21,479 bases of DNA from a virus. This document shows, piece after piece, positions 1 to 8,466 of this stretch. The translations under genes were made by a program, and so were the position numbers. Below the pieces are notes generated by a model. The model saw only the letters and a list, made by a program, of their open reading frames with translations, had not been told where the DNA came from and did not search any database. Every line of letters starts with the position of its first letter. Position 1 is the stretch's first letter. Where the stretch lies: IMG/VR virus record IMGVR_UViG_3300013014_000150, positions 1 to 21,479 of that record; one strand, written 5' to 3'.

Positions 1-225
1 CTCAGCCGAAAGGTCACCGATATTATCCTTCAACTCAGCAGCGCGAGCAGATGCTTTTTTGAACGCGTCACTCGTTTGATCCATTGTAAGCAACTGCTGA
101 TTCAGCGCACGCAACTCAGCCTTTGCACTTGAAAAACCTTGTGCCGTATTGTCCGCCGCTGCTGCCGTCTGATTAAGGACGGTGACCGCGTTCGTGTTTA
201 CGTTGAAGTCAATTGTATTCGCCAT
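1..225 (-). CDS. Tape measure protein, N-terminal fragment (cut by window edge)
   Basis: The frame is open from an ATG at 225 to the window edge, giving 75 residues of a longer protein. It starts MANTIDFNVNTNAV and continues as a hydrophilic helix-forming sequence with MDQTSDAFKKASARAAELKD, a pattern I associate with the N-terminal coiled region of phage tape measure proteins. Such proteins set tail length and fill the tail tube. The start directly abuts the TAA of the upstream 72-aa gene, and baseplate-like and fibre-like genes lie just upstream, which fits. In many siphophages the tail chaperone lies immediately upstream of the tape measure; here the chaperone is about 7.5 kb upstream in the same operon. 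The assignment rests on context and a short fragment. Confidence 0.65.
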   Translation of the reverse strand, partial: MANTIDFNVNTNAVTVLNQTAAAADNTAQGFSSAKAELRALNQQLLTMDQTSDAFKKASARAAELKDNIGDLSAE

Positions 226-5232: not shown

Positions 5233-7743
5233 TTAAATTGATGTTATTGTTTCCCACGATGAAGCTGTTCTAACGCAAAGTTTGTTTAGTGTTGTATCGT
5301 AAACTACCAAGCCTGTTGCTGGTGAAGCAATAGCGTTCTTTTGCGTTGTTGTCATTCTCGGAGGAAGGAAGCCGCGAGTAAGCGAATCAATCTGCGCTAT
5401 TGCTGACGCATTAATTGTAGTACCATTTACCAAAAAAGTGTTATCCGCCCTTAATGCTCCCGTCACCCTCGCCGTTCCATTCACATCGAGCTTGAAACCT
5501 GCGTCTGTTGTTGTGTTGATTAAGACATTACCCCTTAGCGCTGTAAGAGTAACACTGCTATTGCCTAAAACAACGCTATTTGAACCCAAACCAAAAGCAT
5601 TGTAACCTATTACTATTTGGTTAGTTTGAGAATCTGCAAGTGCTTTGCTTAAAGCACCTATAAAAACACTTTGATTTGTTGTTGTTACCACAGTTGTTCC
5701 ATCGGTAAGAAACCTTCCCGCTTGATAGCCTAATCCAACATTAAGACTTCCGCCTATATTATCTTGGATAGCTCGAACACCAACGGCAGTATTTTGATTA
5801 CCCGTTGTGTTCGAAAACAGTGCAAATTGACTTAATGCTGTATTTTGAGTACCTATCGTGTTTGAAAATAACGCATCGTTTCCAACAGCATTATTTGTAA
5901 CAATATTACCACTACCACGACCTACTCTCACACTATTGAATCTTGCGTCTGCGCCAACAGCATCTATAATAAAACTTGGAGTAGCCGTACCAATCCCCAA
6001 TCTATTATTGGTATCATCCCAAAATAAGTTAGCGTTGTCCTGCGCTATTGTTGTTCCATTGCTGAATAGAACACTTCCGCTTGTCAAGGCAGGAAGGTTG
6101 AACTTGCCGTTGAACGTAGACCAATCTGCTGAACTCAAAGCACCTCTATTCGCTGCGCTTGCCGTTGGTAAATTGAACGTGTGCGTACTTGTCGCGGAAG
6201 ATATACCGAAGTCTGTTCCTGTTGTCCCCGTTGCAAAGTTCTGCACCTGTGCCGTTAACCCATTCAACGCAGTTAATCCCGTTGAGAATGTCGTAATGAC
6301 TTGACAAAGGTGACTGTTTTCGGTATGAAGTTTAATCGTCCTTCCTGAGTTGTTAACGTAGATTCGAACCGCTAATCTATCTGTAACCGTTAACGCTGTT
6401 TGTGGTACTGCTAATGCGCTAACGTAAAGGTGTGTTGACGTTCCGTTTGTGATGCCTTCTGGATTAGCTGAACCTGACGCAATCAAAGATAACGTCGCTC
6501 CGTTCCACTTGTATAACTCAATGTAAAATGAAGGAGTGCCGCCTGCACTTGATGAACTGAAATACGTTTCGAAGTTCCAATTTCCTGCTGGTATCTCTAA
6601 CAAGTTTGGAACATTAGCGTCTGTGATAAAAGATTGAATATATCCGTTCGTTGCAATCGTGAAATCTGTTCCTGCACCTATTATGGGTGTTCTATCCATT
6701 TCCTTCATTGCCACACCGCCAAATGTTCCTTGTGCTACCGATCCGTTGAGGTAGTAACTTAATGAACCACCACCACCCGTTGACGCAGGAAAGTTGGCAA
6801 GGCTTCCGTCACCTCTCACATATTGAGAAACCGTACCCGCTCCCGTTACGTCTAAACTTCCCGAACTTGTAATAGGACTATTCGCCACGCTAAACGCAGA
6901 AGGCATGGTTAAACCAACGCTTGTAACCGTTCCCGTTGGTAATGTCGGCAAGTTGTCTAAGTCGTTGTAATCGTTTGAGAAACCAACCGCGCTTATGCTT
7001 GTAATGTCAGCCTTCAAAACAATTTCTTCTTCAAGCGCGTCAATGGCTGCTTCGATGTCAATAATCGTCTGGCAATCACCGATTGTTTCACACGTCAATC
7101 CTACTTCGTCGCTCAACAAATACCAACCGCGCACCCCTGCTCCATTCGTTCCGTAGTAGTAGTTCGGTGCTGGTGTTTCTTCGTCGTTGACAAGCGACAC
7201 GTTGCCGTTCTCGTCGCGATTGATTGAATCAATGAAAGTTAAGATCGAACCCGTACCACCGCTTCCGCTTTCGAAGAAGTCGTTCCATTCAGCGGGAATA
7301 GAACACGCGTCCCAGTAATAAGGGACAAGAAGGTCAAGACTAATCGTCCAACCCGTTAACGTGTGTTGAAATTCTTCTAAGAACGGTTCTAACGAAACGT
7401 TTTGTACCGTGATTAAGTCACCAAACAACATTCGGTGGTTTGTTATCTCAGCAACCAAGTCTTCAGCGATCCGTTGAAGGTCGGAAAGAACTTCGCGTTG
7501 GTATTCAGGTTTGTCTTCTTTGTCGCGTGGTAAGTCGGCAAGGACAATCTGAAAAGAGAACGTCTTCATACCTTTCGCGTAAGTAACGTTCGAAGGCACA
7601 ACGTGCATGAATGGATATTCACCAAACTTTTCAAGGTCGGATACTTCAATCTGTCCGTGTGAAAATCTTTTGAGAATAAAGTGTCCAGACGCGAATGCGT
7701 GGAATCTATCTATTAGCGCGTTGTAGCTTTGTACGTTCGACAT
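5233..7743 (-). CDS. Tail-fibre / receptor-binding protein, 836 aa
   Basis: Residues 1-150 or so form a separate alpha/beta domain (SHGQIEVSDLEKFGEYPFMH) resembling a virion-attachment domain of Bacteroidota phages. A linker follows with motifs typical of their fibres (residues 270-320: TVTSVGLTMPSAFSV, YVRGDGSLANFPA) and a GGGGS hinge at 323-327. Residues 350-485 form a beta-sandwich-like domain (GNWNFETYF, YIELYKWNG, TENSHLCQVITTF) that may bind the receptor. Residues 575-735 carry GIGTATPS and repeated N-T-A-V-G / GNDALFSNT / GYQAG units like trimeric YadA-type head repeats. The C-terminus (RGFLPPRMTTTQKNAI) is a common Bacteroidota fibre end; no S74 autoprotease is visible. Its start lies inside the -1-frame extension of the tail chaperone (38-nt overlap). 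Confidence 0.8.
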   Translation of the reverse strand: MSNVQSYNALIDRFHAFASGHFILKRFSHGQIEVSDLEKFGEYPFMHVVPSNVTYAKGMKTFSFQIVLADLPRDKEDKPEYQREVLSDLQRIAEDLVAEITNHRMLFGDLITVQNVSLEPFLEEFQHTLTGWTISLDLLVPYYWDACSIPAEWNDFFESGSGGTGSILTFIDSINRDENGNVSLVNDEETPAPNYYYGTNGAGVRGWYLLSDEVGLTCETIGDCQTIIDIEAAIDALEEEIVLKADITSISAVGFSNDYNDLDNLPTLPTGTVTSVGLTMPSAFSVANSPITSSGSLDVTGAGTVSQYVRGDGSLANFPASTGGGGSLSYYLNGSVAQGTFGGVAMKEMDRTPIIGAGTDFTIATNGYIQSFITDANVPNLLEIPAGNWNFETYFSSSSAGGTPSFYIELYKWNGATLSLIASGSANPEGITNGTSTHLYVSALAVPQTALTVTDRLAVRIYVNNSGRTIKLHTENSHLCQVITTFSTGLTALNGLTAQVQNFATGTTGTDFGISSATSTHTFNLPTASAANRGALSSADWSTFNGKFNLPALTSGSVLFSNGTTIAQDNANLFWDDTNNRLGIGTATPSFIIDAVGADARFNSVRVGRGSGNIVTNNAVGNDALFSNTIGTQNTALSQFALFSNTTGNQNTAVGVRAIQDNIGGSLNVGLGYQAGRFLTDGTTVVTTTNQSVFIGALSKALADSQTNQIVIGYNAFGLGSNSVVLGNSSVTLTALRGNVLINTTTDAGFKLDVNGTARVTGALRADNTFLVNGTTINASAIAQIDSLTRGFLPPRMTTTQKNAIASPATGLVVYDTTLNKLCVRTASSWETITSI

Positions 7744-7990
7744 AATTATAATCTATTAGGTAAGTCATAAATGTAAATATCTCCCACGCGCTTTTTTTCG
7801 TAATTGCGTCCAATTTAGTTATGTCGCGTCCACAGGCTTCCATAAAAAGATGATACCAACCGTAGCGTCCTAAGACTTGGTTTAGGTTGTCTCGGTCTTC
7901 AATTGCTCCGTCAGTTCCTCCGTCAACTTCTTCACTTCGTTCTCCAAATAATCGAGCGAAGTGTTGCTTAGTTCGTTGAGCAAAGTCGAA
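7706..7990 (-). CDS. -1-frame extension of the tail chaperone (gpGT-like T part), 94 codons
   Basis: This frame has no start codon at its left end and is open from just before the T9 run to TAG at 7706-7708. If ribosomes slip by -1 at the run, residues 1-159 of the chaperone are joined to 94 residues, giving a 253-aa fusion. The new part starts FDFAQRTKQHFARLFGERSE and contains the motif-like stretch LGRYGWYHLFMEACGRDITK, followed by an aromatic helix (SAWEIFTFMTYLIDY). In the same phage group, sequences of the form GWYH-(L/V)-(I/F) with a DI-K-D element occur in the frameshifted half of tail chaperones, to my knowledge. The frame covers the 138 nt between the chaperone stop and the fibre gene, which otherwise looks empty. 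Independent translation from the internal ATG (Met50 of this frame) is the alternative. Confidence 0.65.
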   Translation of the reverse strand, partial: FDFAQRTKQHFARLFGERSEEVDGGTDGAIEDRDNLNQVLGRYGWYHLFMEACGRDITKLDAITKKSAWEIFTFMTYLIDYNYVERTKLQRANR

Positions 7991-8466
7991 AAAAAAAGCA
8001 TCGCGCCGTTGAATTGTTCAAGTGTCATCTGCTCGACGTAGCCTTCAACGAGTTCTCTATTTTGCTTGCTGTGAGGTACGATTGTGTACTTTGAACCAAC
8101 GCGTTTGTCGATAGGACGGTAAAGCGTTCCCATAATCTTGACCATGTTTTCACCTACGTTTGCAGCCCACGTTGAAATGTCCGCGTACTCGCCCATGCTG
8201 ATTGAGTAAAGGTCAGGAATAAAACCGAAGTCTTTGTCCTTGATTGTTATCGTTTCAAAGAACTTCGCTGATTCGTTTGCGAGTGTTCCTTCGAATGCTG
8301 CGAGTAATGTCGGCAAGTGTTGGAAGGGAATCTGTTCCGCTTGTTCTTTCAGTAGGTTACTGATGCTAACCAACTTGTCGATGTCGTTCTTCGCGCTGTG
8401 GTAGTCAACGTATTGCTTTACGCTAATCGAAGAATAGTCAGCTGGTATACTTACTTTTATGCTCAT
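7882..8466 (-). CDS. Tail assembly chaperone, zero-frame product (lambda gpG-like), 194 aa
   Basis: The protein starts MSIKVSIPADYSSISVKQYV. It contains FGFIPDLYSISMGEYADIST (residues 80-100 or so), then a MGTLYRPIDKR segment and a Tyr-containing polar region before the helical C-terminus. This pattern matches proteins often annotated as tail assembly chaperones in Bacteroidota phages. By analogy with lambda gpG, it would bind the tape measure during tail assembly and be absent from the virion. Codons 157-159 read CTT TTT TTT, a run of nine T that ends at the S160 codon; a -1 slip there opens a further 94-residue frame. The short form continues past the run to a Glu/Lys-rich tail and TAA. Start: the only good ATG, 13 nt after the stop of the upstream 89-aa gene. 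Confidence 0.65.
   Translation of the reverse strand: MSIKVSIPADYSSISVKQYVDYHSAKNDIDKLVSISNLLKEQAEQIPFQHLPTLLAAFEGTLANESAKFFETITIKDKDFGFIPDLYSISMGEYADISTWAANVGENMVKIMGTLYRPIDKRVGSKYTIVPHSKQNRELVEGYVEQMTLEQFNGAMLFFSTLLNELSNTSLDYLENEVKKLTEELTEQLKTETT
7990..7996 (-). promoter_or_regulatory. Slippery heptamer T TTT TTT for -1 ribosomal frameshifting
   Basis: On the minus strand the chaperone reads CTT TTT TTT TCG. The heptamer T-TTT-TTT therefore fits the X-XXY-YYZ rule exactly in the zero frame, and it lies within a run of nine T (plus-strand A at 7989-7997). The -1 frame is closed by a TGA about 20 nt upstream of the run, so any shift must occur after that point, and this is the obvious run. 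A downstream pseudoknot was not searched for. Confidence 0.6.

Follow-up and report, generated by a model that had tools for sequence, protein, structure and literature searches.

The window analysed here is the whole 21,479-nucleotide stretch of a viral record (IMG/VR IMGVR_UViG_3300013014_000150), and the genes described below lie on its minus strand. A zero-frame ORF at 7882..8466, running from an ATG at 8466 to a TAA at 7882, encodes a short tail-assembly-chaperone-like (G-like) product of 194 aa that matches PHROG 32199. Within it, sequence and homologue comparison mark a putative slippage run of nine T (7989..7997), read in the zero frame as CTT TTT TTT TCG. A TGA at 8018..8020 shuts the -1 frame upstream of the run; from the run onward this frame is open to a TAG at 7708-7706, 94 codons beyond the run. 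The T-like domain encoded in it (7706..7993) comprises 95 residues, and joined to the zero-frame N-terminal part it would make a protein of 253 aa. Inserting one T into the run in silico, which is equivalent to a -1 shift, yields that protein. The zero-frame stop is separated from the next ATG (7743) by a gap of 138 nt, which only the -1 frame covers.

The first-pass annotation, made from the sequence alone, had given these coordinates and frames; re-checking found them exact, including the upstream TGA and the open -1 frame to the TAG at 7706. It had also named a slippery heptamer, and T-TTT-TTT does stand in frame in the X-XXY-YYZ arrangement, but this understated the site, which is a T9 and belongs to a family with a minimum of nine. 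No other A/T run in the window reaches nine, and only 0.2% of codon-shuffled versions of the ORF contained a T9.

The gene that follows (5233..7743) encodes 836 aa, of which the N-terminal ~160 aa are tail-terminator-like and fused to fibre/spike-like repeats; this N-terminal part is homologous to stand-alone genes of ~150-173 aa in several relatives. At the far end of the window, the first ~75 codons of the tape measure gene (1..225) are present before it runs off.

Conservation of the run and of the -1 frame

Close homologues in IMG/VR (88-100% aa identity) carry T9 in the same register in 80 of 80 cases, and the -1 ORF is open in all whose contig extends far enough. Profile searches extended the set to 365 distinct loci, falling into 67 clusters at 70% identity and reaching down to ~20% aa identity. 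All 365 loci, across the 67 clusters, have a run of 9-12 T at the site with the T-like domain in the -1 frame. Since the peptide patterns of the distant searches came from elsewhere in the protein, these searches did not select for the run. Homologue comparison, on which the first-pass annotation had staked its reading, finds the T run and the -1-frame protein conserved, and in none of the 365 homologues is the run interrupted.

Homopolymers are prone to errors, and the gene might in principle be a single frame broken by a sequencing or assembly error. Against this, the same frame relation recurs in P12024L, a cultured Nonlabens phage, and across independent metagenome contigs numbering in the hundreds; the homologues rule such an error out, leaving it a negligible probability.

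We compared nonsynonymous and synonymous change in the two frames. In the stretch beyond the zero-frame stop, the -1 frame had a dN/dS of 0.09 in the window's family and 0.04 in a second family (that of L170), compared with 0.07 for the zero frame before the run and 0.9-2.6 for other frames of the same DNA, taken as controls. In the overlap region synonymous change is depressed in both frames. Judged by these ratios, the -1 domain is under strong purifying selection as protein. The gene shows one of the features that mark a tail chaperone pair, a C-terminal domain in another frame that lies behind a shift-prone site and is selected as protein.

How the -1 domain comes to be translated was considered in the light of its possible start codons. 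From the run to the GWYH motif, the window's -1 frame contains none of the codons ATG, GTG and TTG. At 347 of 350 scorable loci this stretch up to the conserved motif lacks an ATG, and at 245 none of the three codons occurs. With so few starts, separate initiation of the -1 domain is unlikely, even though P12024L has an ATG that its annotators used; production of the GWYH region from its own start, the other outcome against which the first-pass annotation had set its claim, fits neither the window nor most relatives. Replication slippage in the run might also cause phase variation, since runs of nine are hypermutable, yet the T-domain motif lies in the zero frame, the fused (ON) state, at 0 of 365 loci. 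Both were rejected on the homologue evidence and together are very improbable.

Conservation of the run and of the frame relation, together with selection on the -1 domain, makes a fused second product very likely. By comparative evidence, then, this one gene very likely specifies two products, a protein of 194 aa and a -1 fusion of 253 aa. The proposal of a short and a fused -1 product from a single tail-module gene is in this way upheld by the homologues.

Several observations stand beside the main set. Two single contigs (L211 and L241) have a premature stop in the -1 frame with the run intact. One IMG/VR contig of 61462 bp (G001, loci L085-L087) holds two different related phages of ~30 kb head to tail, with two chaperone genes that are 31% identical and a T9 in each; it is either an assembly chimera or a real cointegrate. 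A scan of genome contigs found no prophage or host copy of the gene. Flavobacterium phage 6H, a weak fold match checked as an outgroup, was uninformative: its coding ORFs lack T runs of at least nine, and nothing comparable to the site was seen.

Run length, codon register and the mode of frame change

The run occurs in three codon registers: TTT TTT TTT nnn (register 0, 10 clusters), nTT TTT TTT Tnn (register 1, 49 clusters) and nnT TTT TTT TTn (register 2, 13 clusters). The register has switched at least 11 times on the tree, and the minimum run is exactly nine in each. Register 2 has lost a T at the 5' side and is extended at the 3' side; register 0 shows the opposite, a 3' loss accompanied by 5' extension. 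For a ribosomal -1 slip the sequence T-TTT-TTT is required, which takes 7, 8 or 9 T according to the register. An X-XXY-YYZ heptamer does not account for a minimum of nine T that holds in every register; such a minimum suggests slippage of RNA polymerase.

Codon usage at the site was also inspected. Phenylalanine elsewhere in the window's family is written TTC 393 times versus 176 for TTT, and TTT TTT is invariant at the site. Register 1 has Y, L, W, F, S or C behind FF, residues with little in common beyond a codon that starts with T. Constraint on the residues encoded in both frames may account for part of the retention of the outer T's, but does not easily account for the way one flank compensates for the other.

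To obtain an expectation for such runs we resampled synonymous codons in the coding DNA of 15 phage sequences, 264 kb in total. Relative to that expectation, A/T runs of 7 and 8 occur at ratios of 0.48 and 0.39. Runs of at least nine number 16, versus about 23 expected in all; 15 of them are the chaperone site and one is an A10 in the portal gene. Whole-genome dinucleotide shuffles had been tried and were replaced by the resampling, since they did not separate coding runs from leader runs. A/T runs of 9-10 also lie outside genes, just upstream of start codons, at L487:1460, L493:4421 and L491:11213, twice before the capsid gene; these are possibly A-rich leaders. Stimulatory RNA structures are frequent, though not obligatory, downstream of -1 ribosomal frameshift sites. 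Across the 67 clusters no downstream structure stands out (mean z -0.10).

Programmed transcriptional slippage would be expected to show a run of about nine or more kept in any register and avoidance of such runs elsewhere, and both are seen; of the marks of a ribosomal -1 frameshift, the in-frame heptamer is present and the downstream stimulatory structure is not. In the mechanism we propose, host RNA polymerase would slip on the run of 9-12 T and add one U, and the minority of transcripts with the extra U would encode the -1 fusion. One inserted U gives exactly the -1 frame seen here. Insertions by bacterial RNA polymerase in A/T runs are of a single nucleotide in 80% of cases and rise with run length (PMC5574713), and nine is the length from which A/T runs are avoided in many bacterial genomes (PMC1088944).

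The alternative is classical -1 programmed ribosomal frameshifting on T-TTT-TTT, as in lambda G/GT, with the extra T's kept by coding constraint or because they raise ribosomal slippage. Descriptions of tail chaperone frameshifting to date are of ribosomal events (PMC5009743). An in-frame heptamer is found in every member, as any run of nine holds one, and a ribosomal -1 slip is therefore possible in each. The second domain, moreover, is always in the -1 frame, where base-deleting slippage might have permitted +1 relatives, and in the commonest register, register 1, the outer T's give hydrophobic residues in both frames, which partly accounts for their presence. A ribosomal mechanism, however, would permit runs of 7-8 T or other heptamers, seen at 0 of 365 loci, and it does not readily explain why loss of a T at one flank is met by extension of the run at the other in registers 2 and 0; nor does a downstream structure accompany the site. 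Three registers, a minimum of nine versus the seven needed, the lack of RNA structure and the rarity of such runs elsewhere fit RNA polymerase slippage better. We therefore infer, with moderate confidence, that the frame is changed mainly by slippage of the host RNA polymerase, and consider ribosomal frameshifting the less probable main route, at roughly one chance in three; both could act, and ribosomal -1 slippage on the same run may contribute.

The tail module and the identity of the gene

Tail chaperone pairs bind the tape measure and the tail tube protein, and the fusion is the minor product; counterparts of gpG/gpGT exist in most long-tailed phages. In relatives, two of which have 127-bp terminal repeats and were taken as complete at about 30.7 kb, the gene order is chaperone, terminator-like gene, gp10-like gene, two large tail genes and tape measure, then protease, capsid, a 170-aa gene and portal. 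The labels terminator-like and gp10-like are our own reading of sequence and position, not database matches. The chaperone gene heads the tail module in most relatives, and the order recurs in most of those examined; in one lineage a fibre gene follows the chaperone. In the window the tape measure gene has its start at minus-strand position 225, about 7.5 kb and several genes downstream. The observation that the tape measure is not the next gene was right: the terminator-like, gp10-like and two large tail genes intervene. The gene is thus in the tail module, as expected of a chaperone pair, and away from the position immediately upstream of the tape measure, which is usual and perhaps not obligatory.

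Structure and profile searches gave less. For the short product AlphaFold gave a good model (pLDDT 84.8), which matched no solved structure among PDB folds; its matches among viral structures are nearly all uncharacterised, with models named as tail assembly chaperones at E 0.3-0.4 only. The model of the T domain is poor (pLDDT 60.7). In a diverse alignment, 24 of 24 members matched PHROG 32199, which has no assigned function, one of 24 matched PHROG 3140, 'tail assembly chaperone', weakly (E 0.005), and two matched a tail-protein family. The C-terminal half corresponds to PHROG 38404 in some distant relatives. Pfam returned nothing useful for either half, and a sequence search of the PDB gave chance matches only.

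A gene with two real products might serve some role other than tail assembly. The lack of a PDB fold match, the holding of its halves in PHROGs as two unknown families, its distance from the tape measure and a gene order unlike that of lambda all leave room for this, and the first and third of these also weigh against placing polymerase slippage in a chaperone gene. On the other side stand its place as first gene of the tail module in most relatives, the shared order from chaperone to tape measure, the matches to PHROG 3140 and the tail-protein family, and the short product with a -1 fusion, which is the hallmark of a chaperone. We consider another role rather unlikely, and the gene to be very probably a tail assembly chaperone pair, by context and logic and not by homology. 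As the counterpart of lambda G/GT that the first-pass annotation proposed, it is supported by context, with no PDB fold match and weak profile matches only; the logic of gpG/gpGT is supported for the short product and the -1 fusion, but the shift itself may not be ribosomal as it is in lambda.

A second candidate site and known systems

The A10 run lies in the portal gene of complete relatives, outside the window. In the window's family the site reads TTA AAA AAA AAA GTA/GTT in 80 of 80 portals (codon 357 of L499:1001-2704 and 79 more, L500-L578), whereas 11 of 15 other invariant lysine columns mix AAA and AAG. After the run the -1 frame stops within 4-10 codons and the +1 frame within 1-2. 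In a second family (L579-L648), each of the 66 portals whose sequence spans the site has A10 in a different register, about as far from the C-terminus, and the other two frames stop after exactly 1 and 3 codons. The run stands just behind the end of the portal domain match. Portals of 418-430 aa that lack the C-terminal part are present in some relatives, and others have the long form but no run. A natural reading is a candidate slippage site that would give a truncated portal, as in dnaX, independently of the chaperone case.

The phages are uncultured aquatic ones, probably with Bacteroidota hosts, as judged from the host of the cultured relative (Persicivirga/Nonlabens). Frameshifting in tail chaperones is the textbook example of a ribosomal recoding event that phages conserve, and tail chaperone recoding is in itself already known. 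In the literature searched, which lay outside most subscription journals, we found no tail chaperone ascribed to transcriptional slippage. There is perhaps an even chance that a large aquatic phage group sets the ratio of its assembly proteins by host RNA polymerase slippage, at the chaperone run of 9-12 T group-wide and at the portal A10, giving a truncated portal, in two families. If so, evolution conserves the pair of products while the mechanism can be replaced, as is known for dnaX. The run-length rule, at least nine in any register, would then be a simple genomic test of polymerase versus ribosomal slippage and would expose missed second products.

Among the closest known systems are Nonlabens phages P12024L and P12024S, the only cultured relatives found in the phage collection searched. 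The P12024L protein is 28.6% identical to that of the window; its gene is the same one, the T9 has the window's register, and the -1 product contains WGWYH. GenBank, in contrast, lists two separate hypothetical genes (40 and 41), so that this record and PHROGs now hold the two halves as separate unknown proteins. Lambda gpG/gpGT shares with this gene a short product and a -1 fusion, a place in the tail module and a C-terminal domain reached only through a change of frame. It differs in having a heptamer where a T run of 9-12 stands here and in having the tape measure next and not several genes downstream, and no sequence or fold homology is recognisable. Transcriptional slippage is known from Thermus thermophilus dnaX (A9) and bacterial IS elements (PMC1088944, PMC5009743). 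They resemble the present site in their nine-residue A/T run, of threshold length, and work through nucleotides inserted into mRNA; the portal A10 of the relatives resembles dnaX further in leading to a truncation. Their outcome is a truncated subunit or a transposase fusion, whereas the one proposed here would be a fixed pair of virion-assembly proteins.
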